Virus record (IMG/VR): IMGVR_UViG_3300032242_002235
Span: 1-28,109 of that record
Length of the DNA: 28,109 nucleotides
Reading direction: 5' to 3' (one strand)
Source: a virus
The notes under the pieces were generated by a model. It did no database searches. It was not told where the DNA came from and saw only the letters and a list, made by a program, of their open reading frames with translations. Below are positions 3,058-24,990 of this stretch, one piece after another. Each line of letters begins with the position of its first letter. Position 1 is the first letter of the stretch. A program made the position numbers and the translations under genes.

Positions 3058-3507
3058 ATGTCAATTACAATTAAGAACTTAGAGGCGGCACTAGCCGGTG
3101 AGTCACAAGCTCATATTAAATATCGATACTTTGCAAAACTAGCCCGTGCAGAAGGTTTTGAAGATGTTGCAAAACATTTCGAACATACAGCTGACCAAGA
3201 ACTGCTACATGCATGGGGTCATTTGGAACTGCTAATTGGCAAACCCTCTACTAAAGAATGTTTAGAAATGGCCATTGAAGGCGAAACATATGAGTTCACT
3301 ACAATGTACCCAACTATGCAGAATCAAGCTGTAGAAGAAGGTATTGTATATGCTGTTGATCTTGCACAAGAACACATCAACGAAAGTAAAGAACATGCTG
3401 ACCAATTCAAGGCAGTATTGGCCAAGGCAGAAAAACGTTTCAATGCACTAAAAGGTGTAGAGAAGCGTCATGCGGCTGCATATCAATCGGTATTGGAGAC
3501 ACTATAA
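3058..3507 (+). CDS. Rubrerythrin-type diiron protein without rubredoxin domain
   Basis: A 149-residue four-helix-bundle ferritin-like protein with an excellent ribosome site (AAGGAG). The N-terminal half shows AGESQAHIKYRYFAKLAR (residues 13-30) and DQELLHAWGH, and the second half shows EGETYEF, MYP, EEG and ESKEHADQF: the two ExxH-type pairs plus extra Glu ligands expected for a rubrerythrin diiron site. Rubrerythrins reduce hydrogen peroxide with electrons from a rubredoxin domain. That domain is missing here but is encoded by the next gene, which overlaps its stop codon. An intrinsic terminator follows the pair. Confidence 0.92.
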   Translation: MSITIKNLEAALAGESQAHIKYRYFAKLARAEGFEDVAKHFEHTADQELLHAWGHLELLIGKPSTKECLEMAIEGETYEFTTMYPTMQNQAVEEGIVYAVDLAQEHINESKEHADQFKAVLAKAEKRFNALKGVEKRHAAAYQSVLETL

Positions 3508-3641
3508 TGGAATTAGCACACATTTGCGTAGTCTGCGGACACGAACACAATGAAGAAAAAGAAGGAAAATGGGATGAACTTCCAGAAGACTTTGAATGTC
3601 CAGAGTGTGGTGTAGGTAAAGACGACTACATTGAAGTATAA
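3507..3641 (+). CDS. Rubredoxin, 44 residues
   Basis: ATG overlaps the rubrerythrin stop (TAATG at 3505-3509), giving MELAHICVVCGHE. Two knuckles, CVVCG (Cys7, Cys10) and CPECG (Cys31, Cys34), bind one iron; DELPEDFECPECG matches the conserved rubredoxin C-terminal half. It is shorter than a free-standing rubredoxin (about 52-54 residues) but longer than the C-terminal domain of fused rubrerythrins. Its role is inferred as electron donor to the adjacent rubrerythrin; translational coupling would give roughly equal amounts. Confidence 0.92.
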   Translation: MELAHICVVCGHEHNEEKEGKWDELPEDFECPECGVGKDDYIEV

Positions 3642-3645
3642 TTAT

Positions 3646-3670
3646 AGCCCGCCGAAGCGGGCTTTCTTTT
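3646..3670 (+). terminator. Intrinsic terminator after rubredoxin
   Basis: A perfect 7-bp stem AGCCCGC / GCGGGCT with the stable CGAA tetraloop, followed by TTCTTTT. It lies 5 bases after the rubredoxin stop and would end the upstream transcript before the tRNA-like gene. Confidence 0.9.
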
Positions 3671-3694
3671 GGCTATTATTTTTATAAGTACCGC

Positions 3695-3729: not shown

Positions 3730-3839
3730 GCGGTCGTGAGTGGAACATGGTAGACCTCCGTTTTGTTGTAATACAAAATTGGGATTGGGCAAGGTCCTAG
3801 ACAACGCCTATGTAGGTTCGAATCCTACCGACCGTACCA
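3730..3839 (+). tRNA. Atypical tRNA-like gene, isotype uncertain
   Basis: A 7-bp acceptor stem pairs 3730-3736 (GCGGTCG) with 3829-3835 (CGACCGT), followed by A and an encoded CCA (3837-3839). The T arm is canonical: GTAGG, loop TTCGAAT, CCTAC (3812-3828). A D-like region with GGTAGA follows the acceptor stem, resembling tRNA-Leu. The anticodon arm would be TTTTG...CAAAA (3761-3778) but its loop is 8 bases (TTGTAATA) rather than 7, so the anticodon is ambiguous (UAA Leu or GUA Tyr). About 33 bases separate it from the T arm, making the gene 110 nt, longer than normal class II tRNAs. It may be a decayed tRNA, carry an insertion, or be a tRNA mimic. Confidence 0.6.
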
Positions 3840-3853
3840 ATTTATAAAAGATT

Positions 3854-4219
3854 ATGACAAGACAAACAGGTAGAGTAGAAAAAGGTTGGGGCTATGAAGT
3901 TATCTGGGCCACTAATGACAAGTACTGCGGAAAGATTATGGTGTTTACTGAAGTAGGTGCCAAGTTTAGTATGCACTTTCACAGTGAAAAAGAAGAAACC
4001 TGGTTTGTCAATGCCGGGGCATTTTTAGTTAGATGGATAGATACTAAAGATGCTAGTCATCACGAACGAGCTCTAGGTGAAGGTGATACGTGGCATAATC
4101 CCCCACTTCGACCACATCAACTAGAAGCACTTGTACCTAACTCAATGATCATTGAAGTATCAACTCCGGATTCAGTAGAAGACAATTATAGAGTAGCAAA
4201 AGGTGATAGTCAAAAATGA
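3854..4219 (+). CDS. Cupin-fold protein, mannose-6-phosphate-isomerase-like
   Basis: A 121-residue single-domain cupin. Metal-ligand candidates are His41, His43 and Glu47 in HFHSEKEETW and His88 in RPHQLEALVP, the usual spacing of cupin motifs 1 and 2. KGWGYEVIW near the N-terminus is typical of sugar-associated cupins. It heads the heptose cassette and overlaps the nucleotidyltransferase by 4 bases (ATGA), so it probably acts on the same sugar pathway, as an isomerase or epimerase or as a binding protein. The exact reaction is not visible; it is not a GmhA or GmhB homologue by sequence. Confidence 0.8.
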   Translation: MTRQTGRVEKGWGYEVIWATNDKYCGKIMVFTEVGAKFSMHFHSEKEETWFVNAGAFLVRWIDTKDASHHERALGEGDTWHNPPLRPHQLEALVPNSMIIEVSTPDSVEDNYRVAKGDSQK

Positions 4220-4617
4220 CCGCTGTATTAGTCAACGGTACATTTGATATTTTACACCCGGGGCACATTGCCTTGTTAAACACTGCAAGAAGTTACGGTG
4301 AATGGTTGATTGTAGCTATTGATACTGATCGTAGAGTTAAAGAATTAAAGGGCGATAGTCGTCCAATTAACAATCAAAACATTCGTAGAATTATGCTACA
4401 GAATCTCAAGGCAGTTGATATTGTAGAATTCTTTGACAGTAAAGAAGAACTAATTGATTTAATTAAGCGTTACAAACCAGATATAATGGTCAAGGGTAGT
4501 GACTATAAAGGCAAGAGTGTTGTAGGAGAAACCTACATACCTAAAGTAATTTACTATGATAGAATAAATGAATACTCAACAACAAACATCATTCAAGATA
4601 TTATTGCTCGGGGATAA
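4216..4617 (+). CDS. hldE2-like: D-glycero-beta-D-manno-heptose 1-phosphate adenylyltransferase (HldE C-domain type)
   Basis: A 133-residue nucleotidyltransferase-fold protein. The NGTFDILHPGHI segment (residues 7-18) carries the HxGH catalytic motif at His14-His17; LKGDSRPIN, VKGSDY and the C-terminal STTNII match the RfaE/HldE adenylyltransferase domain in order and spacing. It would transfer AMP from ATP to heptose 1-phosphate to give ADP-heptose in the cytoplasm. In many bacteria this domain is fused behind the kinase; here it is separate and encoded before it. Glycerol-3-phosphate cytidylyltransferase is the main alternative, but the neighbours argue for heptose. Confidence 0.85.
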   Translation: MTAVLVNGTFDILHPGHIALLNTARSYGEWLIVAIDTDRRVKELKGDSRPINNQNIRRIMLQNLKAVDIVEFFDSKEELIDLIKRYKPDIMVKGSDYKGKSVVGETYIPKVIYYDRINEYSTTNIIQDIIARG

Positions 4618-5320
4618 TTGTACTGATGTGTATCAGTATGGTACTATTGATCGATTAAGTCCCGAAGCGCCGGTACCTGTATTTGTTCCTACTTATACAG
4701 AAGAACGTAGCGGAATGGCCGGCAATGTGTTTAACAATCTCGAAGCACTAGGTTGTTATGTTAATTACCTGCATAGTGAAACCAGCATCAAAACTAGACT
4801 TATTGACGAACGCAGTAGGCAACAGATTGTTCGCATAGACAACGATGCCAAGGCAACTCCTATTAAATTTGACACTGATATACCTAACATATACGATGCG
4901 GTGGTTATCAGTGACTACAACAAAGGTAGTATTAGTTACGAACTTATGGAAGAAATCATCGCCGTAGTTAACTGCCCTGTGTTTATTGACACTAAGAAAA
5001 CAGACCTACAACGATTACAAGGTGCCTGGGTTAAGATTAATGAGTTAGAGTACAGCAAAATTAAAAGCGAATGTACCGGATTAATTGTTACTCGAGGCAG
5101 TCGAGGTGCAGAAGCAATTCATCACGAGATTACCTGCCCGGCTGTTAATGTAGAAGTTGTAGATGTTACCGGTGCTGGAGATACATTTCTAGCGGCACTT
5201 GCCTACTATTATATAGACACTGGTGATATTAAACAGGCGATACAATTTGCCATCCAAGCGAGTGCTGTGACAGTACAGCATTTAGGAGTATATGCTCCAA
5301 CATTAAAGGAAATGGGATGA
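4568..5320 (+). CDS. hldE1-like: Heptose 7-phosphate kinase (PfkB family, HldE N-domain type), compact
   Basis: A 250-residue PfkB-family sugar kinase. RLSPEAPVPVF (residues 29-39) and SGMAGNVFNNLEALG (48-62) are hallmarks of the RfaE kinase domain, and DVTGAGDTFLA (199-209) holds the catalytic Asp205 and anion hole. The bacterial domain is about 310-320 residues; this one lacks roughly 25 residues after the GGxANV region and about 20 more before the C-terminal strands, so it is a trimmed version. The start at 4568 lies 50 bases inside the preceding gene and is needed to include the first beta strand FKILLLGDN; no later ATG would do so. Confidence 0.85.
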   Translation: MNTQQQTSFKILLLGDNCTDVYQYGTIDRLSPEAPVPVFVPTYTEERSGMAGNVFNNLEALGCYVNYLHSETSIKTRLIDERSRQQIVRIDNDAKATPIKFDTDIPNIYDAVVISDYNKGSISYELMEEIIAVVNCPVFIDTKKTDLQRLQGAWVKINELEYSKIKSECTGLIVTRGSRGAEAIHHEITCPAVNVEVVDVTGAGDTFLAALAYYYIDTGDIKQAIQFAIQASAVTVQHLGVYAPTLKEMG

Positions 5321-6195
5321 TTATTTTAACAGGTGCCGGCGGATTTATTGGCAGTGTTGTATTAGGTTATCTAAACAAACAAGGTATTAACGACATTGTG
5401 TTGTTTGACGATTTACCTAATCCAGAGCAATATAAAAATTTAATAGATAAAGAATTCAACAGCATTTATCTACACACTGTTGACGAAGTAACAAAGTTTT
5501 CTCCGGATGAAATTGATTGTGTTGTTCATCTTGGCGCTAACAGCAATACATTAGAACAAGACTGGATGAGTATCTACAAGACTAATGTGCAATCAACACG
5601 CAGATGGTCTAAGTTTTGTCTAACAGCAGGCATCCCGTTTATCTTTGCATCAAGTGCAGCGGTCTATGGAAACAGCAATAGACCACTTAATCAATATGCA
5701 TTTAGCAAACAGATAAGTGAGAATGAAATTACAAACGGGGTAATCCTACGTCTGTTCAATGTGTATGGGCCAAATGAATATCACAAAGGTCGTATGGCCA
5801 GTACTATTATGCACTGGCATGACAAGATCAAGAATGGTGCCGATATTCCCCTATTTGTTGGATCAGATAACTATTGTCGAGATTTTATCTATGTAGAAGA
5901 TGTGGCACGTATCATCTATCACTTCATCCAAAACTACAAGCCTGGAGTCTATGATGTAGGAACGGGCACATCAATTAGTTTTGCCACATTGGCCAACGAA
6001 CTAATTGCACAAATGGGCAAGGGCAATATTAAAGACGTTGTCATGCCCGATGATTTAGAATCTCAATATCAGACCTACACAAAAGCTGATATTGCAAATT
6101 TGGAGCAATCTGGATTTGACACAGGGTCTTTAATACCGTATACTGATGGTGTTAGAGCATATATAACTTACTTAGATAAAAAGTTATACTATTAA
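5317..6195 (+). CDS. hldD-like: ADP-L-glycero-D-manno-heptose 6-epimerase-like (HldD/RfaD)
   Basis: A 292-residue extended short-chain dehydrogenase. The NAD(P) loop is GAGGFIG (residues 6-12), SSAAVYG supplies the catalytic Ser region, and Tyr127-Lys131 (YAFSK) is the YxxxK pair. FNVYGPNEYHKGRMAS (147-162) and RDFIYVEDVA (188-197) are closely like HldD, which uses HKGxMAS in substrate binding. It would invert C6 of ADP-D-glycero-D-manno-heptose to the L form used in LPS core. It overlaps the kinase by 4 bases and ends the cassette. Other sugar epimerases share the fold, but the HKG motif and context favour HldD. Confidence 0.88.
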   Translation: MIILTGAGGFIGSVVLGYLNKQGINDIVLFDDLPNPEQYKNLIDKEFNSIYLHTVDEVTKFSPDEIDCVVHLGANSNTLEQDWMSIYKTNVQSTRRWSKFCLTAGIPFIFASSAAVYGNSNRPLNQYAFSKQISENEITNGVILRLFNVYGPNEYHKGRMASTIMHWHDKIKNGADIPLFVGSDNYCRDFIYVEDVARIIYHFIQNYKPGVYDVGTGTSISFATLANELIAQMGKGNIKDVVMPDDLESQYQTYTKADIANLEQSGFDTGSLIPYTDGVRAYITYLDKKLYY

Positions 6196-6407: not shown

Positions 6408-6940
6408 TGAAAGACGAATCTCGGGATGAAAGTTTTGAGATAGATCTAGGTAAGATCGATTCCACTGTAGATGACAATTTGTCTTATATCAGCAGTGGAA
6501 CTGATACTATTACTATCACTGGAATTGATTCTAGCAACACCTATACTTGGGGTAATATGAATTCAACAATCTCACCGTTAACAACTGGATCTATTACGTT
6601 GCCAACAGGTAGTTTAAATTATAGTCATTCTCCTTACAGTATCAATACTGGATCGTCTGGACAGTTTTTAACAAGTGGCAGCAATGGAACCAGCTGGGCC
6701 AACGGTTCAGGCAACGGCACCGTTAATATCAGTACTACTGGTATTGACATGGCAGCTGGTACTGATCTTAAAATAGATGGAAAAAGTCTAAAAGACTTCA
6801 TGTCTAAAATGGAAGAACGGTTGGCCATACTTGTACCCGATCCTGCTAAATTAGAAAAATTTGAAGCATTGAAAAAGGCCTATGAGCATTATAAAACAAT
6901 GGAATCGTTGTGTTTCGACGAACCAAAAGAAGAAGATTAA
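6407..6940 (+). CDS. Fibre- or virion-associated protein with helical C-terminus
   Basis: A 177-residue protein. The first two thirds are Ser/Thr/Gly/Asn-rich, with SGQFLTSGSNGTSWANG, a module also seen in the fibre genes at 24454 and 25010. The C-terminal part (LKDFMSKMEERLAILVPDP followed by a Glu/Lys-rich stretch) is helical and typical of proteins that cap or attach to phage structures. Expression is coupled to the upstream gene. It is likely a small structural protein; the exact place in the virion is unknown. Confidence 0.6.
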   Translation: MKDESRDESFEIDLGKIDSTVDDNLSYISSGTDTITITGIDSSNTYTWGNMNSTISPLTTGSITLPTGSLNYSHSPYSINTGSSGQFLTSGSNGTSWANGSGNGTVNISTTGIDMAAGTDLKIDGKSLKDFMSKMEERLAILVPDPAKLEKFEALKKAYEHYKTMESLCFDEPKEED

Positions 6941-6945
6941 ATACT

Positions 6946-7638
6946 ATGCATGTTAAATTACTCAGCTACTCACAACCCACTGCAGAATTTGCCAGCATGG
7001 GTGTCGATGATGCACAGGAACTCATTGCCTATTGCGCCCGTGTCAGCAATCCTGCCAACCAATTTAACACCGAAACATCGGAACGACTCATCAAGTATCT
7101 TATCAAGCACCAGCACTGGAGCCCACTCGAAATGGTCTCAGCCTGTTGCGAAATTGTCACAACCCGTGACATTGCCCGACAGATTCTACGTCACAGAAGT
7201 TTCAGCTTTCAAGAGTTCTCCCAGCGATATGCTGATCCTACAGCTGAACTCGATGAAGCGTTTGTGCTACGTGAGGCACGATTCCAAGACACCAAGAATA
7301 GACAGAATAGCGTAGAGTTAGACATGTCTGACGAAGCACAGAAGCTATTGGCGATTGAATGGGAACGTGCTCAGAAGCGTGTGTTGTTCTCAGTGAAGCA
7401 AGAATATTCCTGGGCTATCAAGAACGGTATTGCCAAAGAGCAGGCTCGTGCAGTTCTACCGGAAGGCCTTACTGTTAGCCGCATGTATATGAATGGCACA
7501 CTACGGTCATGGATTCATTATATGGAACTGCGTTCAGCTAACGGTACACAGAAAGAACATCAAGAAATTGCCATTGCCTGTGCCAAGGCCATAGCCGCTA
7601 TCTTTCCCATGACCGAATCGCTAGTAGCAAATGGATAA
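6946..7638 (+). CDS. thyX: FAD-dependent thymidylate synthase ThyX
   Basis: A 230-residue protein starting at ATG 6946 (MHVKLLSYSQ). RHRSFSFQEFSQRY (residues 82-95) is an exact match to the RHRx7S ThyX signature that binds FAD and dUMP, and EQARAVLPEG with WIHYMELR near residues 165-196 form the substrate site and the rest of the tetramer interface. It methylates dUMP to dTMP using methylenetetrahydrofolate and NADPH. ThyX in place of ThyA is common in aquatic phages. The frame is open further upstream, but that part overlaps the previous gene; the ATG follows its stop by 5 bases. Confidence 0.97.
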   Translation: MHVKLLSYSQPTAEFASMGVDDAQELIAYCARVSNPANQFNTETSERLIKYLIKHQHWSPLEMVSACCEIVTTRDIARQILRHRSFSFQEFSQRYADPTAELDEAFVLREARFQDTKNRQNSVELDMSDEAQKLLAIEWERAQKRVLFSVKQEYSWAIKNGIAKEQARAVLPEGLTVSRMYMNGTLRSWIHYMELRSANGTQKEHQEIAIACAKAIAAIFPMTESLVANG

Positions 7639-11105: not shown

Positions 11106-12230
11106 ATGAGCAAAATCGACCAAGCATTAGAAACCCTGGCACTAGCCCTAAAAGACCTAGAGCCAACTCCTCCTGTAATTGACTACAAACAAGTAGTTAA
11201 CAGCCTACCTTTACGAGCCCTAAGTGGCAATCATATCGAAGGCGGTATAATCAGAAACTTCGCCAGTTCGGGCATTACTGATACCGCAATGACTGAGCAG
11301 ATCAAGATTGCAGATTCTGGAGTAACTATTACTTCATTGTCAGTTGCAACAGTTGCAAATGATGTTACCTTTACTAAATCTGTTACAGTCAACGGTACTG
11401 TTAAGGTACAGCGTCTTGAAGTTAACGAACTTCAAGCAGACTTGAGAATTGAACGTTCTAGCTCACTAGAATTTAAAACAGGAAAGAACGATCCTGTTTA
11501 CGGTAAAGGTCTACTATGGATTGGTAACGGTGCTACTAAGCAGTTGGTATACAATGCAGATCCTGATAGATTCTTTAGTTCTGAAACTATTGATCTTGCC
11601 AACGACAAGAGTTTTTCTATTAATGGTATTAATGTACTAAGTGCAACGGGTCTTGGATCAGGTGTAGAAAAGAGTAATCTACGTGAAGTAGGTCGTCTAC
11701 GTTCGTTATCAGTCAACGGCGATGTTAACATAAACAATAATATCTATTACAATGCTGCTAGTCGCAGATTAGGCATGGGCACAGATACGCCCAACGCTGC
11801 AATTTCTCTAGTTGATAACAACATAGAATTGGTACTAGGAGGCACTCAGGAATCTCGCGGTGCGATAGGAACATTCACACACAGTGATCTAGAACTAGTC
11901 ACTGACAATGTTTCTCGTGTTACTATTACTTCAAACGGTGATATCACACTTGGCAACAAGACCAAACAGCCATCGCAGGTTACTGTTCAAGGTAAGTTGT
12001 CCGTGGGTGTGAACAATCCAGATCCCGGTGTTGATCTACATGTTAGTGGTGCAATTAAATTCAGTAACAATCTACACACAGCCAGTGATGCCGCTCCATC
12101 ATACGGTGCATTTACACTAGGTGACATTGTTTGGAATACTAAACCAGCACCGGGTGGATGGATTGGTTGGGTATGTATTGCCTCGGGCAGTCCGGGACAA
12201 TGGACACCGTTTGGTGCCGTTGCTAGATGA
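11106..12230 (+). CDS. Tail fibre or baseplate-associated structural protein
   Basis: A 374-residue protein starting MSKIDQALETLALAL, with a helical N-terminus, then repeated beta-strand motifs: SVTVNGTVKVQRLEV, RSLSVNGDVNINNNI and TSNGDITLGN. These alternating hydrophobic strands with Asn-Gly turns are typical of trimeric beta-stranded fibres. The end (GDIVWNTKPAPGGWIGWVC ... GQWTPFGAV) is the sort of C-terminal cap found on phage fibres and on tail spike proteins. No ribosome site is visible; the gene overlaps the next by 4 bases. Confidence 0.75.
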   Translation: MSKIDQALETLALALKDLEPTPPVIDYKQVVNSLPLRALSGNHIEGGIIRNFASSGITDTAMTEQIKIADSGVTITSLSVATVANDVTFTKSVTVNGTVKVQRLEVNELQADLRIERSSSLEFKTGKNDPVYGKGLLWIGNGATKQLVYNADPDRFFSSETIDLANDKSFSINGINVLSATGLGSGVEKSNLREVGRLRSLSVNGDVNINNNIYYNAASRRLGMGTDTPNAAISLVDNNIELVLGGTQESRGAIGTFTHSDLELVTDNVSRVTITSNGDITLGNKTKQPSQVTVQGKLSVGVNNPDPGVDLHVSGAIKFSNNLHTASDAAPSYGAFTLGDIVWNTKPAPGGWIGWVCIASGSPGQWTPFGAVAR

Positions 12231-12805
12231 TTGTAGTCGGTAATGGCGAAAGCCGTAAAGACATAAATTTAACCAACTTAAAAAACATTGTAGGGTGCAA
12301 TGCCCTACATAGAGATTACCGTGTTGACCATTTAATATGTGTTGATCGCCGGTGTGTTCTTGAAGCACTCAATTCCCCTAATTGCACCAATACTAAAATA
12401 TACACTAGACCAGAGTGGCTTGGCCATTTTAATCACTCTAATCTATTGCCAGTTCCTGTTCTGCCCTATGACGGTGAACTTAGACAAGATGATCCATTCC
12501 AATGGGGCAGTGGCGGATTTGCCTTGGTGTTGGCCGCACAGTTATCTGATCGTATAGACATTATTGGTTTTGATCTTTGGGGTAATGGCAAACAGGTCAA
12601 CAACATTTATAAAGACAGTAAAAACTATGCTAAGACTGATAGTCACAGTGTTGATCCTAGCTATTGGATATACCAAGTTGGCAGGGTCTTTGAGTGCTAC
12701 CCTGATAAGTACTTTACTGTGTACAATGCAGATGGTTGGCAAATGCCTGATATGTGGCAATTGGCAAATGTTAATTTTAAAACTATTGACATGTTCCAGC
12801 AATAG
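12227..12805 (+). CDS. Putative sialyltransferase-fold glycosyltransferase
   Basis: A 192-residue protein. It starts MIVVGNGESRKDI, a nucleotide-binding-like first strand and Gly-rich loop, followed by VGCNALHRDY and DHLICVDRR. The segment QWGSGGFALVLAAQLSDRI then IDIIGFDLWG resembles the motif of GT29/GT42-type and DUF115 enzymes in which a small-residue loop leads to a helix and a VxVxGFD strand. It would use a CMP- or NDP-sugar. Substrate unknown. Context (other glycosyltransferase at 13542, heptose genes upstream) supports a role in glycan modification. Confidence 0.55.
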   Translation: MIVVGNGESRKDINLTNLKNIVGCNALHRDYRVDHLICVDRRCVLEALNSPNCTNTKIYTRPEWLGHFNHSNLLPVPVLPYDGELRQDDPFQWGSGGFALVLAAQLSDRIDIIGFDLWGNGKQVNNIYKDSKNYAKTDSHSVDPSYWIYQVGRVFECYPDKYFTVYNADGWQMPDMWQLANVNFKTIDMFQQ

Positions 12806-13351: not shown

Positions 13352-13542
13352 TGAATACAGTAGAAAAAATTTGGGCTAGAGCAACTGGCCATTTAATGGG
13401 GCATACCGATGACGATCGTCCCGATGTTCCTATCCTCACAATAAAAGAAGCCCGTTGGGCTTTGTTCTTTAAAACATTCTGGGTCATAATGCATATTGTA
13501 ACCTGTTGTTTTATTATTGCAGGCATTATTAGGCACTGGTAA
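13351..13542 (+). CDS. Small single-pass membrane protein
   Basis: A 63-residue protein whose ATG overlaps the queD stop (TAATG). The first half, with GHTDDDRPDVPILTIKEA, is soluble and acidic; residues 38-60 (FFKTFWVIMHIVTCCFIIAG) form one hydrophobic segment, followed by IIRHW. Similar proteins occur in marine T4-like phages. It could be holin-like or anchor a modification enzyme, but neither is shown by the sequence. The stop codon overlaps the next start. Confidence 0.7.
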   Translation: MNTVEKIWARATGHLMGHTDDDRPDVPILTIKEARWALFFKTFWVIMHIVTCCFIIAGIIRHW

Positions 13543-14240
13543 TGCTAAATGTTCTGTGTCTAAAGCACGGTACAAAATACGGTGCGGACTATGTAAACAA
13601 GCTGTTCAATATGATCGAGCGGCATTTAACGGTGCCGCATCGATTTGTTTGCTTTACAGATAATCCATCTGATTTAAATTCCAATATTGAAATAAAAATA
13701 CTTCCACAAAATGCTAGTCTATCGGGATGGTGGTGGAAAACATATCTATTTAAACAAGGGCATTTTGAAGATGGAGACATTAACTTGTTCTTTGATCTTG
13801 ATATGGTCATTATTGGCAACATTAATAACATCGCCACATACTTGCCCACAGAATTTGTTGGCCTAATGGATGTCGGTCGAGTGTTCCAACGTCTAAATCC
13901 CAAGTTAGGCAGTGCAGTTATCAAGTGGCCTGCTAATCAATATAGTGATATATGGGATCGTATTGAATCAAATCCTACTGAGGCAAATAGAATGCACGGT
14001 GATCAAGATTGGATTTGGCACTTGCATAATGATAAGATCAAGTTCTTTCCGGAAATATGGATACAGAGTTACAAATGGGAAATACGAACTAGAGACGAAC
14101 TTGTTCGACAGGGCGGTAAGTTTGTATTCAATACCGTCAAAAATCCCACAGTAGATCCACAAACCAATGTGTTGGCCTTTCACGGTACACCTAATCCAGA
14201 AGATGTAATGGATCCTATCATAGTTGACAACTGGCAGTAA
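13542..14240 (+). CDS. Glycosyltransferase, DxD-containing, GT8-like
   Basis: A 232-residue protein. Begins MLNVLCLKHGTKYGADYVNKL; PHRFVCFTDN (residues 32-41) and SGWWWKTYLFK resemble nucleotide-sugar-binding segments of GT8-type enzymes, and NLFFDLDMVIIGNI contains the DxD (Asp85, Asp87) that binds metal and the nucleotide sugar. HGDQDWIWH supplies a further metal/acceptor motif. It is a soluble cytoplasmic enzyme with no signal or membrane segment. Acceptor unknown: LPS, phage DNA bases or virion proteins are possible. Confidence 0.8.
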   Translation: MLNVLCLKHGTKYGADYVNKLFNMIERHLTVPHRFVCFTDNPSDLNSNIEIKILPQNASLSGWWWKTYLFKQGHFEDGDINLFFDLDMVIIGNINNIATYLPTEFVGLMDVGRVFQRLNPKLGSAVIKWPANQYSDIWDRIESNPTEANRMHGDQDWIWHLHNDKIKFFPEIWIQSYKWEIRTRDELVRQGGKFVFNTVKNPTVDPQTNVLAFHGTPNPEDVMDPIIVDNWQ

Positions 14241-16423: not shown

Positions 16424-19400
16424 ATGTCAAGACTACCAATTAATATCGGTACAACAGGTAATGATGCTACAGGTGATAGCATCAGAGAAGCGTTTAGAAA
16501 AACCAACGCTAATTTCACAGAATTATACACATCATTAGGCCTAGGTGACAGACAAAAATTCACTAACCTAGCTGATGTACCCAATGGTAATGATGCATAT
16601 AACGATCAAGCAGGTAAAGTACTTGCGGTTAATGCAGCAGAAGCTGGATTAGAATTCCTTAGAATGGAAGGTGCCGGCGGTATAAACGTCAGCACAACAT
16701 CCACTCCGGGTAGTATTGTTATCACCAACACACGTAGCAGTATTATCACTGATACAACTCCGCAGTTGGGAGGTGATTTAAACGCCGGCAATAAGAAAAT
16801 TTACAATCTTAGTAACCCAACAGAACCACAAGATGCAATGAATTTGCGTTCTGGTTTGTTAAAAAGCGGATATACTGACCAATTCCCCGATAACAAAATG
16901 ACCGGTCCATTGATCTTAAATAGAGATCCGATTGTGTCAGATGACAGAAACTTCAATGGCCTAATTGCTGCAACCAAAAAATACGTAGACAATAGTAGCT
17001 ATGTTAGTACTGTAAACTTCTATGTATCAACATCGGGTACAGACTATCGTGCTGATCTTCCGGAGAACAAACGTGGACGCTTTTGGTCCTATGCTTTTAG
17101 AACTGTTCAACGTGCATGTGAAGCAGCAGAAGCTGTTATTAATGCAACGCCATTAGAACTTGGACCATACCAAAAAATTCTAACCTATGACGGCGGACAA
17201 TCAGAAGCCGCAGTTATTTCTTACATTGACCAGAGCGGCGGCATATTCAATCTATCGTTATACACCGCTAGTCTGCGCACTGACTATGAAAACGATCTAC
17301 GTCCCGGACTATATTTACAAGGTGACGTAAGCGGAGCATTGGCAAAGATTGTATCTATTAATCCTGTATTGAGCAGCGGCAATGAAATATTTGTAGTTAC
17401 ACCAGTTACTGGTACATTCATAGCAGGTGAGAAGGTAAGATACAGTGATGCGGTTCAGGCTGTACAAATTACAATTCTAGTTGAGTCTGGAATCTACACT
17501 GAAAACTTTCCAATTAAACTTCCACCAAACGTATCAGTTGTAGGCGACGAGTTTAGACGTGCAATCATTCGCCCACGTAACAGCATCAGCGGTAGCCCAT
17601 GGGTAGCATCAGTATTCCGTCGTGACAAGGTCTTTGATGGATTGAGATTGACTGACTATATTGGCAGTAACCTTGCATCATTTACCACTGCAACCCCAAG
17701 TGCTGCTACAGGAACTATTACAGTTACTCTAGGTACTACAGTACCGTCCAATGCATCACAATGGATTGGGGGATTCTTTCGTGCTGCCCAATCAGGATCA
17801 ACTAAATTTGCAGAAGGTGTTATTACCGCAGTTGGAGCAAGTTCTTTTACACTGGTAGTACACGATGATTTTATTAATCTGTCTGCTGTTCCTGCAGGAA
17901 AATGGACCGTTTATCAAACCAGTACATATGGCAGACACTATCTAACGGACATTACTAGACCAATTTATCCAGTAGTTAACTACGGCAATCATAGTAATGC
18001 CGCTAGAATTTTAACACTAAACAAGGCATTTATCCAAGCTGAAGTTACTTCATTCCTTGATTATACCTACGGCGGTACCAGCACATTTAGTTATGATCAG
18101 GCGGTATTTCAGTATAACATTAGACTAATACTCGATGCAGTAGTATCTGACATGGTACTAGGTTCCAATTATCGAAGCGCAGCCGCTGCTATTGCCTACT
18201 CTAATATTATTTTGCCTTCACAAAAATCACAGATAATTTCAGGTATCAGTAAGGCCAGACAACTGACAATTGCCACAGTGTCAGGTAATGCCGATGCTGT
18301 TGCAGCATTAACCATTGGATTCAATAATGTAATTCGCATTATCACTAACGGCTTATCCGCAGTGCCTGCATTGGACTATCCTAACCCAACTGGGCTTTCG
18401 GATCCAAACAGATATGCAAAAGTATTATTAATTGCCAATAGAACATTTATACAAAAAGAAGTATCAGCATGGTTGGCCGCAAACTATACAGTATCATCTA
18501 TTCCAAATTATAGTAGTTCAACTCACGAAAGAGATGTTGGCTATGTTCTTGATGCTCTAGTTTATGATTTAACCTACGGCGGTAATAGTCGAACTGTAGC
18601 GGCAGCTCTAGCATATGTAACTGGATCAGCGATAGGTGAGAATGCTGGAAACACCGCGGGCATATTATCTAAAATTCCAGGACAAGAAGCATACATGGCC
18701 GCTGCATACGGTCGTATGAAAACTGTAGTTCAAAGTATTTCACGTGATCAAACTGTGTCGGTGACCTCCACTGGTACTAATCCAAATACACAAACACAAG
18801 TTAGAAAAGCCACATTGGGTATTACTGATGCACTAACAGATACTTCAGCATCTACTGCATTGGGATTAAAACTAGACAATGTCATTGATGTTGTTAACAG
18901 TATTGATGTTACATCTCCATATACAACTCCTGTAACTATTCCAGTTATCGTATACCCAACATTTACTACAGGTACAGCTGAATTACAGGCAGCAAAAACG
19001 TTTATTGATGCTGCACAGGTTACTATCAGTGCTGGTGCTGTCAATTATCTAAACACACGTTATTCAGGTACGTTCAAATATAACAAAGACAAGTGTGCCA
19101 GAGATGTGGGCATCATTGTGGATGCCATGGCATTCGACTTAAAATACAGCGGCGGACAAAGAACCATTGCTGCGGCATTGACCTACTATCAAGCAAGTTC
19201 AGCGCTGGTCCTTTCGGATCAGTTAGAGGAAACAACTGCGGCATACCAATACCTACACGATCTTGCAGAAACGTTAATTACCAATCCGTTAACACTAATT
19301 CCTCCATATACTGTGGTTGGATCACACGTTGGCTATCGTTATCAAAACGTTGTACCACAGGTGTTTGCCCGAGCCCAATCATCAATTATTAGTTTCACTG

Positions 19401-22400
19401 CATCAACTAAGGCAATTACCAGTAGCAATGTAAACGTTGTTAACTTTATTGATCTTGGTTTCTTAGCCGGTGATAGAATTATTGTTTCGGGTACTGTAAA
19501 TAACGATGCAACATATACCGTTGCCGCAGTAAGTGAATCTACTATTACTGTGTTAGAAACAGTGACCACTGAAACTGCTGGACCAACTGCAACATTTACC
19601 ATTACCAACGACCTCACAATCAATGCGGGATCAACAGATGCAGTCACTCAGTTAACCAACGCTGTGATAGGCATTATTAATAATGATGTTAATTTTAATC
19701 CACCGTTGCCAAATGATCAATTAGATGTATTCTTATGCAATGATGCAGTGATGGTACGCAATATTACATTCCAGGGTCATGGCGGATTTACCATGGTCTT
19801 TGACCCGGAAGGACAAATTAGAACCAAGTCACCTTATGCACAGACTTGTTCTAGTCTGACTCGCAGTATCAACAGTCAGGTATTTGCAGGTGGTCAATTT
19901 GTTGATGGTTTTGCTGGCAACGTTGCAACAGCAGCCATACCAGCAACTAGTACTACTAAAACCGCAACATTTACTTCTACTATTAGCGGAACAACATTAA
20001 CCATTACCAGTTTGATCAGCGGAACTGTCAATGTTGGCATGACACTAAGTGGCGGTAGTGTTACTGCCGGAACTTATATTGTTTCAGGAACTGGAATAAC
20101 ATGGACGTTAAACAAATCAGCTACTGGTACTCCGACATCGGGCACTAGCTACACTACATTAGGTGTATTGGGATTAGCTCGTCAGCCACAAGTTCCTTGT
20201 TCTTTTGTCATCGGCGGAACTAGTTACTCAGTATCAACTATCAATAATTACAGTAACATTGACGGGTCAGCAGTTCTTAATCTAAGTGCTCCATTACCAA
20301 CTTCAATTGTTAGTATAGTAACTGCTGGTAGTTTTGTTGCTGGATTATTATACACAATTAAAACTATTGACAATACCGATTATACACTAATAGGTGCAGC
20401 AAGTAACACTATCGGATTAACATTTACTGCCACAGGTGTAGGCAGTGGCACAGGAACTGCCTACACTGCTATCGAATTAATCACTGCAGGTAATCGTTCG
20501 ATGTTATCCAATGACTTTACACAGGTTAATGATCTTGGCTACGGACTAGTTGCTACTAACAACGGTTTGATTGAAGCAGTGTCTGTGTTTACCTACTACA
20601 ACTATACTGCCTACTATTCATTAAATGGTGGACAGATTCGTTCATTGAACGGATCATGTGCCTACGGTCTAAATGCTCTTAAAGCAGAAGGTAGTGATCC
20701 ATTAGAAGTTCCAGATGACATTACATTAAAATATGATCTAGTGCAAACTGCCAAAGTATATGCCCCGGTCACGATGACGCTAAGTGCAGCCATTACTGGT
20801 GTTGTTACCATTGGCACAGTAGTAACACAGGCAACAAGCGGATTAACTGGAACTATTGTTGATGTTAATACTGGAAGAACAAGTATTACGGTATTGCCAA
20901 TATTACCTAGAGTATCGGGTACTGTGATTGGAATCACAGGCGGCACTAACACTGGTACATTTACCAGCTCGGGTTCAGGAGTCGTTAACTTCTCAACTGC
21001 AGGATTTACTGCTAATCAGTATATTACAATCTACGGTACAGTCAGCAACGATGGTAGCTATAAGATTGCCTCTGTTAGCTCAGCGGGACAAACTTCGATT
21101 ACCGTAAATCAGAAATTTGTCAATGGTGCGTGGACCAGTACGTTTACTACCGTAACTGAATCACCAGGAACATACTTAACTGTTGCTGCAACTGGTTCAT
21201 TCTTAAACACATCAAGTGACACGTTATCTGCAACTGGGTGGACTAATACACCATATCCAACAACCACTGGTTCGGACTATGCGACAGCCGCAGCAGGTTT
21301 AACTCTTTACGTTGACACTGCCAGTTATCTGCCAAACAACCTAAGTGAAATTGAAATAGTATTCACAGGTGCATTGAATAGAGTGTATCGTTATGAAGTC
21401 AGTAGTTCTTCACTGGTAACATCGATCGTACCAACAGCAACAACTGCTGGCTCATTTGTAGTTGGTATAAAGTACACAATCGCCACATTAGGAACTACTA
21501 CAACGCAGGCCAACTGGAATACCATTGCAGGAACAAGCGGCGTTACTTATATTGCGGGATCAATATTTACTGCCGCTACTGTAGGTACAGGTAATGGTAC
21601 TGCAACTAGAAATGATTTTATTGCTAATAATACAACATCAGTTTACAAACTAAACATATCAGCTGGTTCAACTAGTGTTGGATCAACTGGTTTGTATTCA
21701 GCTATTCCACACGGACAGTACGTTACACTAAGACAGAATAGAACACTATGGTTAGATGGTCTAAAAGAAGTTGTAGCAGTTCGTCCGTCAACTGCGTTGG
21801 TTATTGCTGATCAACCAACAAGTGTATATCGTGTACTGTCGTTTACATTGGTTAACGCACAAACTGGAACCTTTGTATGGAGCGGAACAACTGCAACCAT
21901 TGCTGCAACTGCGCATGGATTAACCAATGGGGTAACTGTTCTAGTATCGTTCTCAGGCGGTACGTATGGTAATCCGGCAACAGCGGCCTATGTTGTTACC
22001 TATATTGGTGCTAATTCGTTTAGTATTAATATTGGTTCTGCAAACGGAACAGGATATGATTCACTTGGTGCTGTGGCATTCTCACAGTCTACTGGACAGG
22101 GCTATGCTAACCTACGTGAACCATACGGGTCAATCATTGTTAACGACTATGCTGTAACTGGCGGTGTTGCATATCCAGCAAGCCATGGCGGTATTGGTGA
22201 TACAAAAATTGCCTGTATTGGAATTGGCCTAAACGACATTCCACGTATTGTTGGAATGAAGTTTGCATGGTATAATACAATCCACACCATTACTGCATAT
22301 CTACCTCCAGGTGTAGTTGGTGGTACAACAGATACAGGTACAGTCTATGGTAGACTAACATTTACTCCTGCACTAACTACACCTTTCCAAAAGCTACTAG

Positions 22401-24454
22401 GTAATTATGATAGTATCAACGCAGTTAGAGCTGTACAGATTGCTGGACAAACTGGTAACATTAGTGTTAACATTTCAACCATGCGTGCCACAGGTCATGA
22501 CATGTTGTCAATTGGTACCGGTAGCTATGCTGATAGTAACTATCCAAATAACATTTATGGACCTCCAATTACATCAGCAGCAAGTTCTAAAGAAGTACAA
22601 GAGATTGGTAAAGGTCGTGTGTTCTATGTAAGCACTGATCAAGATGGTAATTTCAAAGTTGGTGAGTTCTTCAAGGTAGACCAAGGTACTGGTACTGTTA
22701 CATTCTCAGCAAGTATTGCTCTGAGTAACTTAAACGGTCTTGGATTTAAACGTGGTGTTGCGATTAGTGAATTCTCAACAGATGACACCATGACTGACAA
22801 TGCTGCTGATACTGTTCCAACAGAGCAGGCAGTACGTGGATATCTTGAAAAACGTCTTGGTATTACTCATACCGGCGGCCTTACTCCGTCAAGCACACTG
22901 ATTCCAGTAGGTGGCGGATTTGTGGATCGTAAAGGTCTGTTGAGCATGACCGGCTCATTAAAAATGGGCGGAAACATAGTTACCGATCTAGGTAATCCTT
23001 CGGGAAGCGGAGATGCAGTTCCTTACAGTTGGTTAACATTTGGCAGACTACAAGACTTCGACGATAATAATATTCAAGGCGGTGACTTGTTAGTGATGAC
23101 CGGTAACGGTACGCATGTTACCAATGCCAATGTAACTGGTCCTGTTACATTTAATTTAACAGCAGGTGATAGTAGTACTCCGCAGATTCGTAGTGCAATT
23201 GGTGACGGACAAATTACCAATACCATGTTTAGCAGTAACAGCGGTGACAAATTAGCATTAGCTAAAATTGAAACTATTCCGACTGCAACTATAGGTACTT
23301 CGATAGGAACAGGTCCGGGACAAGCAACCAAAGGTTTAGCAGCATTTAATTCTACACAGTTTAGTTCAGCAAGTGGGTTTATTTCTTTTACCGGAACTGT
23401 TGCATTAAGCAGCATTGGAACTATTTCTGCATACACGTTACTAGGAAACAACAGCCCAACTACAACTGCTCCGGCTGCGGTTGCGTTTAGTGATGTGGTT
23501 ACAGTCGGTGGGGCACTGAGAAAAGATGCATTTACTCAAACTGGTATAATGCAAGTTACTTCAGCAACACCAGGAGCACAGACATTTGCCAGTAGTTTAC
23601 AATACACATCAGCTATTACAGGAGAAACTCTAGTAAAACGTGATAGTAACGGAGATTTTATTGCCAATACTATTACACTGGGCACAACAGGTGCAGGTGG
23701 ATTAAAATTATCAGACGGTGGTAATGGCGGATTAGTCACTGCCAATGTGGCAAATGTAGTAACAAGTCAACGAATTAGCACCGGCGTTGGACAGCATATA
23801 TTAAGTGCATACGACGGCAACGCAGCTATTCAAATGCAGAGCGGTACTGGTTACAATAAGACCTTGTACAATGCTGGGTCACATGATTTTAGAGATAAAG
23901 CAGGTAGTGGCGCTGGAACAATAACATTGGGCGCGGGCGGCAATATTACACTGGGTGCTGCAAGTACAATTACTATTGGAAGTGGAGGTACACTTACTAC
24001 CGGTGGAGAGACTACAACTGGTAACATAACTGGACGTTGGTCATTAACTGGTACAAGTAGATTAGAAGCTACATATGCTGACTTGGCGGAATATTATTCA
24101 AGTGATAAAGAGTATCTAGTAGGTTGGGTTATGATGTTCGGTGGAGACGCAGAAGTTACTGCTGCTAATGTACTTGGTACAACTCGTGTAGCAGGTGTAG
24201 TATCAACTGATCCAGCATACATCATGAACAGCGGCTTAGAAGGTATTAGAGTATGCCTAGCACTACAAGGTCGTGTACCATGCCGCGTAGTTGGTAAGAT
24301 TAAGAAAGGTGATTTAATCATTGCCAGTGACATTCTTGGTGTTGCGATCAGCGCAGGTGATACAGCACGGGCAGGTACTATTATTGGTAAGGCATTGGAG
24401 GATTACGATAGTGATCACATTGGCCTAATTGAAGTCGCAGTAGGGAGAGTATAA
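16424..24454 (+). CDS. Giant tail fibre / adhesin, 2676 residues
   Basis: One uninterrupted frame. Residues 6-39 (including NDATGDSIREAFRKTNANF) form an attachment module shared with the gene at 24454. After a hinge, FYVSTSGTDYRADLPENKRG and a segment with SVVGDEFRRAIIRPRNS indicate a beta-helix. Three copies of a helical repeat follow (about 18015-19195), then another beta-helix region with NITFQGHGGFTMVF and YGLVATNNGLIEAVS, then long Thr/Ser/Gly-rich beta-fibre repeats. The C-terminus (YADLAEYYSSDKEYLVGWVM ... RVAGVVSTDPAYIMN) resembles the intramolecular-chaperone or peptidase-G2-like caps of marine T4-like fibres. It probably binds the host surface. The size is large even for fibre proteins. 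Confidence 0.9.
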   Translation: MSRLPINIGTTGNDATGDSIREAFRKTNANFTELYTSLGLGDRQKFTNLADVPNGNDAYNDQAGKVLAVNAAEAGLEFLRMEGAGGINVSTTSTPGSIVITNTRSSIITDTTPQLGGDLNAGNKKIYNLSNPTEPQDAMNLRSGLLKSGYTDQFPDNKMTGPLILNRDPIVSDDRNFNGLIAATKKYVDNSSYVSTVNFYVSTSGTDYRADLPENKRGRFWSYAFRTVQRACEAAEAVINATPLELGPYQKILTYDGGQSEAAVISYIDQSGGIFNLSLYTASLRTDYENDLRPGLYLQGDVSGALAKIVSINPVLSSGNEIFVVTPVTGTFIAGEKVRYSDAVQAVQITILVESGIYTENFPIKLPPNVSVVGDEFRRAIIRPRNSISGSPWVASVFRRDKVFDGLRLTDYIGSNLASFTTATPSAATGTITVTLGTTVPSNASQWIGGFFRAAQSGSTKFAEGVITAVGASSFTLVVHDDFINLSAVPAGKWTVYQTSTYGRHYLTDITRPIYPVVNYGNHSNAARILTLNKAFIQAEVTSFLDYTYGGTSTFSYDQAVFQYNIRLILDAVVSDMVLGSNYRSAAAAIAYSNIILPSQKSQIISGISKARQLTIATVSGNADAVAALTIGFNNVIRIITNGLSAVPALDYPNPTGLSDPNRYAKVLLIANRTFIQKEVSAWLAANYTVSSIPNYSSSTHERDVGYVLDALVYDLTYGGNSRTVAAALAYVTGSAIGENAGNTAGILSKIPGQEAYMAAAYGRMKTVVQSISRDQTVSVTSTGTNPNTQTQVRKATLGITDALTDTSASTALGLKLDNVIDVVNSIDVTSPYTTPVTIPVIVYPTFTTGTAELQAAKTFIDAAQVTISAGAVNYLNTRYSGTFKYNKDKCARDVGIIVDAMAFDLKYSGGQRTIAAALTYYQASSALVLSDQLEETTAAYQYLHDLAETLITNPLTLIPPYTVVGSHVGYRYQNVVPQVFARAQSSIISFTASTKAITSSNVNVVNFIDLGFLAGDRIIVSGTVNNDATYTVAAVSESTITVLETVTTETAGPTATFTITNDLTINAGSTDAVTQLTNAVIGIINNDVNFNPPLPNDQLDVFLCNDAVMVRNITFQGHGGFTMVFDPEGQIRTKSPYAQTCSSLTRSINSQVFAGGQFVDGFAGNVATAAIPATSTTKTATFTSTISGTTLTITSLISGTVNVGMTLSGGSVTAGTYIVSGTGITWTLNKSATGTPTSGTSYTTLGVLGLARQPQVPCSFVIGGTSYSVSTINNYSNIDGSAVLNLSAPLPTSIVSIVTAGSFVAGLLYTIKTIDNTDYTLIGAASNTIGLTFTATGVGSGTGTAYTAIELITAGNRSMLSNDFTQVNDLGYGLVATNNGLIEAVSVFTYYNYTAYYSLNGGQIRSLNGSCAYGLNALKAEGSDPLEVPDDITLKYDLVQTAKVYAPVTMTLSAAITGVVTIGTVVTQATSGLTGTIVDVNTGRTSITVLPILPRVSGTVIGITGGTNTGTFTSSGSGVVNFSTAGFTANQYITIYGTVSNDGSYKIASVSSAGQTSITVNQKFVNGAWTSTFTTVTESPGTYLTVAATGSFLNTSSDTLSATGWTNTPYPTTTGSDYATAAAGLTLYVDTASYLPNNLSEIEIVFTGALNRVYRYEVSSSSLVTSIVPTATTAGSFVVGIKYTIATLGTTTTQANWNTIAGTSGVTYIAGSIFTAATVGTGNGTATRNDFIANNTTSVYKLNISAGSTSVGSTGLYSAIPHGQYVTLRQNRTLWLDGLKEVVAVRPSTALVIADQPTSVYRVLSFTLVNAQTGTFVWSGTTATIAATAHGLTNGVTVLVSFSGGTYGNPATAAYVVTYIGANSFSINIGSANGTGYDSLGAVAFSQSTGQGYANLREPYGSIIVNDYAVTGGVAYPASHGGIGDTKIACIGIGLNDIPRIVGMKFAWYNTIHTITAYLPPGVVGGTTDTGTVYGRLTFTPALTTPFQKLLGNYDSINAVRAVQIAGQTGNISVNISTMRATGHDMLSIGTGSYADSNYPNNIYGPPITSAASSKEVQEIGKGRVFYVSTDQDGNFKVGEFFKVDQGTGTVTFSASIALSNLNGLGFKRGVAISEFSTDDTMTDNAADTVPTEQAVRGYLEKRLGITHTGGLTPSSTLIPVGGGFVDRKGLLSMTGSLKMGGNIVTDLGNPSGSGDAVPYSWLTFGRLQDFDDNNIQGGDLLVMTGNGTHVTNANVTGPVTFNLTAGDSSTPQIRSAIGDGQITNTMFSSNSGDKLALAKIETIPTATIGTSIGTGPGQATKGLAAFNSTQFSSASGFISFTGTVALSSIGTISAYTLLGNNSPTTTAPAAVAFSDVVTVGGALRKDAFTQTGIMQVTSATPGAQTFASSLQYTSAITGETLVKRDSNGDFIANTITLGTTGAGGLKLSDGGNGGLVTANVANVVTSQRISTGVGQHILSAYDGNAAIQMQSGTGYNKTLYNAGSHDFRDKAGSGAGTITLGAGGNITLGAASTITIGSGGTLTTGGETTTGNITGRWSLTGTSRLEATYADLAEYYSSDKEYLVGWVMMFGGDAEVTAANVLGTTRVAGVVSTDPAYIMNSGLEGIRVCLALQGRVPCRVVGKIKKGDLIIASDILGVAISAGDTARAGTIIGKALEDYDSDHIGLIEVAVGRV
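18015..19195 (+). repeat. Three imperfect helical repeats in the giant fibre
   Basis: Copies near 18015-18200, 18430-18620 and 18985-19190 each read roughly FI..EV, a Tyr-rich turn, RDVG..(V)DA...DL.YGG and then AAALxY. Copy 1 has diverged at the RDVG position (FQYNIR). They differ at DNA level, so the duplication is old. Confidence 0.7.
20329..21610 (+). repeat. Two copies of a ~45-residue Gly/Thr module
   Basis: Segments near 20329-20463 and 21451-21610 both start GSFV(A/V)G followed by YTI and end in a (T/F)(T)A(A/T)(G/V)G..GTGTA-type run. Similar modules recur in phage fibres and may be exchange units. Confidence 0.55.
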
Positions 24455-24990
24455 TGACTAAGCAACTCATAAACATCGGAACATCGGCCAACAAGGGTAA
24501 CGGTGATCCGTTACGTACTGCCTTTAATAAAATTAATGAAAACTTCAGCGAACTGTATACACAATTAGACGGGTTTGGATTAAACAATTCAATTCCTAGC
24601 CTAACTGGCAATGATGGTAAGTATTTGTCCAATGACGGTGCAGCATTGGTTTGGCATACACTTACTATCCCAACTGATATTAATCAACTTGCTGACTCTA
24701 GTCATTTACTGCCTAGTCCAGATCTAGTAGCATCTGTTGGCACTACACCGCCTGGGGTTCACCCAACAGGTACATTATGGTACGATTCAACCAGTGGTAG
24801 ATTATATGTTTACTTCGACAGTAGTTGGATTGATGCTAGTCCCAAAGGTACTGCCAGTGCTATAACCTATGCTACCAAGGCAGCAAATGCTACAGGTGTA
24901 GCTGGACAGATCAGCTACGATGCAAACTGGATTTATATTTGTACATCAACGAATACATGGAAGCGTTCGCCATTAACAGGCGCATATTAA
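24454..24990 (+). CDS. Fibre-associated protein sharing the giant fibre's N-terminal module
   Basis: A 178-residue protein whose ATG overlaps the fibre stop (TAATG) and is preceded by AGGGAGAG. Its first residues, INIGTSANKGNGDPLRTAF and KINENFSELY, are the same attachment module as the giant fibre's N-terminus. It continues with NDGKYLSNDGAALVWH, the GxxL module seen in other fibre genes, and a C-terminal domain with Trp and Tyr repeats (GTLWYDSTSGRLYVYF). Probably a short fibre or an adaptor joining fibres to the baseplate. Confidence 0.75.
   Translation: MTKQLINIGTSANKGNGDPLRTAFNKINENFSELYTQLDGFGLNNSIPSLTGNDGKYLSNDGAALVWHTLTIPTDINQLADSSHLLPSPDLVASVGTTPPGVHPTGTLWYDSTSGRLYVYFDSSWIDASPKGTASAITYATKAANATGVAGQISYDANWIYICTSTNTWKRSPLTGAY

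Follow-up and report, generated by a model that had tools for sequence, protein, structure and literature searches.

A cupin proposed to replace GmhA in the ADP-heptose gene block of a phage and in DPANN archaea

Organization and family membership of the four-gene block

Genes for three steps of ADP-heptose synthesis stand behind a cupin gene in a phage sequence that contains no gene for the isomerase GmhA, and the question raised by this locus is which protein, if any, would supply the first step of the pathway. The window, by which we mean the whole stretch of DNA analyzed, comprises 28,109 nt of IMG/VR record IMGVR_UViG_3300032242_002235.

All four genes are encoded on the plus strand. The first, at positions 3854 to 4219, specifies a 121-amino-acid cupin that is predicted to be a sedoheptulose-7-phosphate isomerase taking the place of GmhA. 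This gene is followed by those for a nucleotidyltransferase (NT) of the HldE-C/HldC type (positions 4216 to 4617; 133 amino acids; phrog_7878), a short-form PfkB kinase of the HldE-N/HldA type (positions 4568 to 5320; 250 amino acids; phrog_8133) and an HldD-type ADP-heptose 6-epimerase (positions 5317 to 6195; 292 amino acids). ORF coordinates gave overlaps of 4 bases each for the cupin/NT and kinase/epimerase pairs, while a 50-base stretch at positions 4568 to 4617 of the same strand was read directly as encoding both the C terminus of the NT (STTNII...) and the N terminus of the kinase. An earlier note on this DNA had described compact, overlapping adenylyltransferase, kinase and epimerase genes behind a cupin gene, with the kinase encoded after the NT and a 50-base overlap between the two, and the ORFs were positioned exactly in this manner. 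The intact motifs that it had listed were all detected in the block (HPGH, GAGD, GAGGFIG, YAFSK and HKGRMAS), and its estimate that the kinase was about 65 residues short agreed with an alignment in which the phage protein had 250 amino acids and the E. coli kinase domain had 318. GmhA and GmhB had been reported as missing from the window; neither was apparent among the ORFs, and no phosphatase was found in the 28-kb window, whose ORFs lacked the HAD motif DxDG[TV]. As the cupin and NT genes of the window overlap by 4 bases, there is no GmhB gene between them.

The best NCBIfam model was a heptose enzyme for each of the three proteins downstream of the cupin. Scores of 126.4 bits for the NT (TIGR02199, HldE domain II), 147.9 bits for the kinase (TIGR02198, HldE domain I) and 243.0 bits for the epimerase (TIGR02197, ADP-heptose 6-epimerase) were obtained, with E values of 7e-37 to 4e-72, and all three were below the curated equivalog cut-offs of 181.5, 345 and 274.6 bits, respectively. 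The HxGH and STT motifs by which TIGR02199 is recognized were present in the NT as HPGH and YSTTNII. The kinase retained the PfkB catalytic motif GAGD, the RfaE signature SPEAPVPV and the motif SDYNKG, and alignment with the E. coli domain attributed its shortening mainly to gaps of 26 and ∼19 residues, both outside the catalytic motifs, together with smaller losses. The di-glycine motif of HldE, GGAANV, reads GMAGNV in the phage kinase. An AF2 model of this protein (pLDDT 90.8) had Burkholderia HldA (4e84_B) as its nearest fold, with a Z score of 26.9 over 243 residues and an rmsd of 2.5 Å, and the next non-HldA match, to other PfkB kinases, had a Z score of 23.8. The epimerase matched E. coli HldD (1eq2) in a phmmer search with an E value of 4e-53, and alignment of the two proteins indicated conservation of Y140, K144 and K178, the catalytic residues of the E. 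coli enzyme. Overall, these comparisons supported the assignment of the block as a phage-encoded set of three putative ADP-heptose-type enzymes with intact motifs.

Properties of the cupin

Cupins catalyze many different reactions, and the fold of the window cupin was shared by proteins of several activities. Residues H41, H43, E48 and H88, which make up an HxH/E/H site, and K27, K46, E101 and R113 were invariant in 28 phage cupins and were kept in the archaeal ones; 18 alignment columns, including the metal residues and two lysines, were invariant across the phage and archaeal proteins together. With E values of up to 1 allowed, Lyx_isomer (PF07385) matched all 28 phage cupins and MannoseP_isomer (PF01050) matched 19 of the 28. 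The window cupin scored below the Pfam cut-offs for both families (15.2 of 20.8 bits for PF07385 and 14.2 of 23.6 bits for PF01050), and one archaeal cupin, L095, scored above both (24.4 and 29.9 bits, respectively) and its top-scoring NCBIfam model was GMP_PMI, matched at the isomerase (mannose-6-phosphate) end. Alignment with the D-lyxose isomerase 2y0o revealed the common elements Y-C-x-K, HxH, KxE, H and ExS, and alignments with quercetinase and oxalate decarboxylase had mainly the metal residues in common.

The AF2 model of the cupin (pLDDT 92.2) was a beta-barrel, and its structural matches included the Thermococcus phosphomannose isomerases (7zvm/7zvy) with a Z score of 14.7. CapF, KdgF and quercetinase matched this model with equal or higher scores, so the function of the cupin is not given by fold alone; by profile and fold, quercetinase and oxalate decarboxylase scored as well as the isomerases. 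A beta-barrel with an HxH/E/H site was found in place of the SIS fold of GmhA, and the cupin is not a GmhA by descent. It resembles aldose-ketose isomerases of the D-lyxose/mannose type, sharing with these cupin isomerases (PF07385; the type II mannose-6-phosphate isomerases, PF01050; and 7zvm/7zvy) the fold, the metal residues and several invariant Lys and Glu residues at ∼12 to 21% identity in structural alignments, while its proposed substrate, a heptulose phosphate, differs from theirs. The conversion of mannose-6-phosphate to fructose-6-phosphate is the same chemistry as that of GmhA on a substrate one carbon shorter.

Recurrence of the gene set in phages

The ADP-heptose module is already known in phages, being carried by cyanophages such as P-SSM2, and a publication mentions heptose genes in one cyanophage (PMC7378029). 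The same families were found in complete cyanophages as T4-GC 304-308, and 39 IMG/VR loci were retrieved with the window kinase. The cyanophage set (P-SSM2, S-CAM1, S-SSM7 and P-TIM68) has the NT, short kinase, cupin and epimerase of the window at ∼31 to 48% protein identity, and the NT/kinase overlap is likewise present in P-SSM2 and others; it differs in the addition of a HAD protein of ∼105 amino acids and, in some phages, in an epimerase gene on the other strand. The order of NT before kinase, the overlap and the short kinase were common to most phage relatives and therefore represent traits of the family and not, as the earlier note had implied, peculiarities of one phage. Recurrence of the same gene set in dozens of phage loci also means that the block is not a chance arrangement.

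A cupin gene was present in 43 of the 49 kinase loci (the window, 9 cyanophage loci and the 39 from IMG/VR). In five of the six cupin-less loci, under 1.7 kb separates the start of the locus from the point where the available sequence stops; the remaining one, in S-SM2, has its cupin gene elsewhere in the genome. A scan with the cupin only identified 80 viral loci, every one of which had the NT, kinase and epimerase genes and none of which had GmhA; GmhB was present in 35 and a short HAD protein in 3. Conversely, the cupin was missing from 8 viral loci in which GmhA accompanied the kinase and NT. For 18 phage records with the module, including 9 complete cyanophages, no match to TIGR00441, SIS_2 or SIS was obtained in any record, and the cupin was detected in all 18 with scores of 162 to 182 bits. 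The earlier note was correct in placing a cupin ahead of the three genes and had overlooked its role as a conserved member of the pathway, probably the first enzyme.

That note had also suggested looking for gmhB in related phages, and either GmhB or a short HAD protein was found in these relatives. GmhB-family proteins were detected in 14 phage loci among the first loci found; where position was read, the gene was between the cupin and NT genes (L020) or just behind the cupin gene (L028), and the two proteins had NCBIfam GmhB scores of 136 to 137 bits. No convincing match to a GT9 heptosyltransferase was obtained, the highest being 22.6 bits against a cut-off of 22, with weaker matches in ORFs preceding the carbamoyltransferase gene of cyanophages and in G001 and G002.

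Two standing annotations of cyanophage genes look wrong in light of these comparisons. The ∼105-amino-acid protein with a DxDGT motif (T4-GC 306; L002, positions 6719 to 7063) is named phosphoheptose isomerase, yet those genomes have no SIS domain, and its best NCBIfam match was a HAD phosphatase of capsule biosynthesis with a score of 35 bits; it may be a GmhB-like phosphatase. The protein named cysteine dioxygenase (T4-GC 307; L002, positions 7044 to 7400) is the cupin of the heptose module. Cysteine dioxygenase activity was considered as the function of the cupin and rejected as improbable, since the gene accompanies heptose genes and swaps with GmhA.

Mutual exclusion of cupin and GmhA in DPANN archaea

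When genomes were searched with a profile of the phage cupin, DPANN archaea were found whose operons had the order cupin-HldD-kinase-GmhB-NT. From 194 genomes of the phylum, 41 were surveyed; these had TIGR02199 scores of approximately 140 bits or more, apart from a few (4 to 6) that were reached through the cupin. Thresholds of at least 185 bits for strong GmhA and at least 100 bits for the cupin were set after the scores had been seen, there being a clear gap for both. By these thresholds, 20 genomes had strong GmhA, 18 had the cupin, none had both and 3 had neither, although the MAGs among them may be incomplete. The cupin was therefore present in 0 of 20 genomes with strong GmhA and in 18 of 21 without it (Fisher P = 7.5e-9, or 5.5e-7 without six cupin-selected genomes), with SIS proteins of 87 to 117 bits in three cupin-bearing genomes counted as not GmhA.

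The two genes also occupied the same position in otherwise matching operons. GmhA-HldD-kinase-(GmhB+NT) in L126, L127 and L128 corresponded to cupin-HldD-kinase-(GmhB+NT) in L140 and L141; as five separate genes, GmhA-HldD-kinase-GmhB-NT in L129 corresponded to cupin-HldD-kinase-GmhB-NT in L093, L095, L096 and L142; and GmhA-x-kinase-GmhB-NT in L130 corresponded to cupin-x-kinase-GmhB-NT in L143. Fusions followed the same pattern: L132 and L133 have a kinase+GmhA protein, whereas L136, L137 and L138 have a kinase+cupin protein. Further fusions of GmhB+cupin+NT (L135) and cupin+HldD (L086) were observed. On a tree of kinase domains, at least 8 changes between the cupin and GmhA labels were required, at least 3 of which were forced by well-supported branches, and the cupin-bearing L143 and GmhA-bearing L130 were sisters with support of 100/100. 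Exchange of this kind within one slot is characteristic of non-orthologous gene displacement.

Exceptions to the exclusion were also encountered. Two viral contigs (L194 and L239) had both GmhA and a cupin of the same family, with a divergent NT and no kinase, possibly pointing to a second use of the cupin. An SIS ORF was present near the cupin gene of L090, and several cupin-bearing bacterial MAGs held gmhA elsewhere in the genome. These cases leave room for a second role of the cupin and lower our confidence.

Proposed pathway and alternative explanations

Because related archaea hold either the cupin or GmhA in one slot and none of those surveyed holds both, the cupin is proposed as the stand-in for GmhA. 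We consider it likely, with a probability of about 0.7, that the cupin, kinase, phosphatase, NT and epimerase make an NDP-heptose, most likely ADP-heptose, with the cupin replacing GmhA. The cupin would convert sedoheptulose-7-phosphate to D-glycero-D-manno-heptose-7-phosphate as a non-homologous, metal-dependent aldose-ketose isomerase, and the kinase would convert this heptose-7-phosphate to the 1,7-bisphosphate. The 7-phosphate would then be removed by a phosphatase, which would be GmhB or, in other phages, a short HAD protein and which for the phage of the window would be encoded outside the window or supplied by the host. The NT would form ADP-heptose, and the epimerase would invert C6. 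Sequence and comparative genomics establish which genes are present, how well they are conserved and how the cupin and GmhA exclude and replace each other; from these we infer what each enzyme does, the substrate of the cupin, which sugar is made and where it is attached. As the earlier note suggested, the product could enter LPS, act against superinfection through the host surface or decorate fibres or DNA.

An alternative is that the host supplies GmhA, and the phosphatase, and that the cupin has another job in or after the pathway, such as epimerizing a sugar or altering the product. GmhA is present in host bacteria whose LPS contains heptose, and the bacterial MAGs and the two viral contigs with both genes are in keeping with such an arrangement. 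This explanation leaves the distribution of the cupin in the DPANN genomes unaccounted for, as well as its exchange with GmhA in identical operon slots and in kinase fusions, and we regard it as unlikely. RmlC-type epimerases are, to our knowledge, without a full HxH/E/H site, whereas the cupin has one. In favor of an epimerase role, small cupins are reported to act as C3/C5 epimerases when Campylobacter modifies GDP-heptose (PMC7949155).

Repurposing of the enzymes for the synthesis of some activated sugar that is not a heptose would explain the scores below the equivalog cut-offs and the shortened kinase, and the altered di-glycine motif and the likeness of the cupin to D-lyxose/mannose isomerases also fit this idea. 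It is made improbable by the choice of a heptose enzyme as best match in every case, the proximity of the kinase model to HldA, the retention of the HldD catalytic residues, the true GmhB adjoining the module in relatives and the swapping of the cupin with GmhA in full-length archaeal heptose operons. That the block is what is left of LPS genes taken from a host and now decaying or inactive, as the short kinase and the missing phosphatase gene could suggest, appears more improbable still, given that the motifs are intact, the overlaps are tight and the same short kinase is highly conserved over dozens of phage loci.

Relation to known systems

Compared to the bacterial ADP-L,D-heptose pathway (GmhA, HldE, GmhB and HldD), the kinase, NT and epimerase of the window are homologous, as is the GmhB of phage relatives. 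The window differs in having a separate NT and kinase in reversed order, a kinase shorter by ∼68 amino acids and a cupin in place of the SIS-fold GmhA. The phage module itself being known, the new element is the cupin as isomerase, probably a substitute for the absent GmhA that had not been recognized before. A literature search whose coverage took in few subscription papers gave no description of a cupin acting as the isomerase of a heptose pathway. As far as the work of Tang et al. (Science, 2024) is represented in PMC11461863 and PMC11573728, ADP-heptose can be produced by heptose enzymes from viruses and archaea, the phosphatase was reported to be absent in viruses and no cupin is mentioned. 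The present survey differs from that cross-kingdom set in the finding of GmhB and short HAD proteins in phages and in the proposal of the cupin as isomerase, and the GmhB genes bear on the statement, as given in those two sources, that viruses lack the phosphatase.

It is likely that sedoheptulose-7-phosphate isomerases comprise a second class, not homologous to GmhA, to which the cupin belongs, and that this class catalyzes the opening step toward ADP-heptose in archaea without GmhA and in hundreds of phages. Such phages would encode the isomerase, kinase, NT and epimerase, and in many cases also the phosphatase, and would depend on the cell for nothing but sedoheptulose-7-phosphate and ATP. 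If this is true, the gap at the start of heptose synthesis in phages and archaea is filled, the two cyanophage annotations are corrected to a short HAD protein and an isomerase, and the cupin becomes a marker gene for heptose producers missed by GmhA-based surveys. Large marine and freshwater phages would then carry nearly whole nucleotide-sugar pathways, and not single auxiliary genes, which would open the target of decoration, whether host surface, virion or DNA, to direct tests.

Neighboring features of the window

A rubrerythrin gene and a 44-codon ORF (positions 3508 to 3641) with rubredoxin-like CxxC pairs, an unusual pair for a phage, occupy positions 3058 to 3641. A strong terminator-like hairpin at positions 3646 to 3671 (AGCCCGCCGAAGCGGGCT, followed by a T-rich run) lies after this small ORF and sets the heptose block apart from the genes before it. 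Immediately 5' of the cupin gene, at positions 3730 to 3838, is a tRNA-like element with paired acceptor ends, a good T arm and an ACCA end; it has ∼30 extra bases in the middle and scored 25.5 bits with the Rfam tRNA model (cut-off, 29), and no tRNA was called in the window by ARAGORN. Downstream of the block, glycosyltransferase-like genes were observed at positions 12227 to 12805 and 13542 to 14240. Beyond these genes, an ORF of 2,676 amino acids (positions 16424 to 24454), followed by a baseplate/fibre-connector-like gene (positions 24454 to 24990), probably encodes a giant tail fibre.
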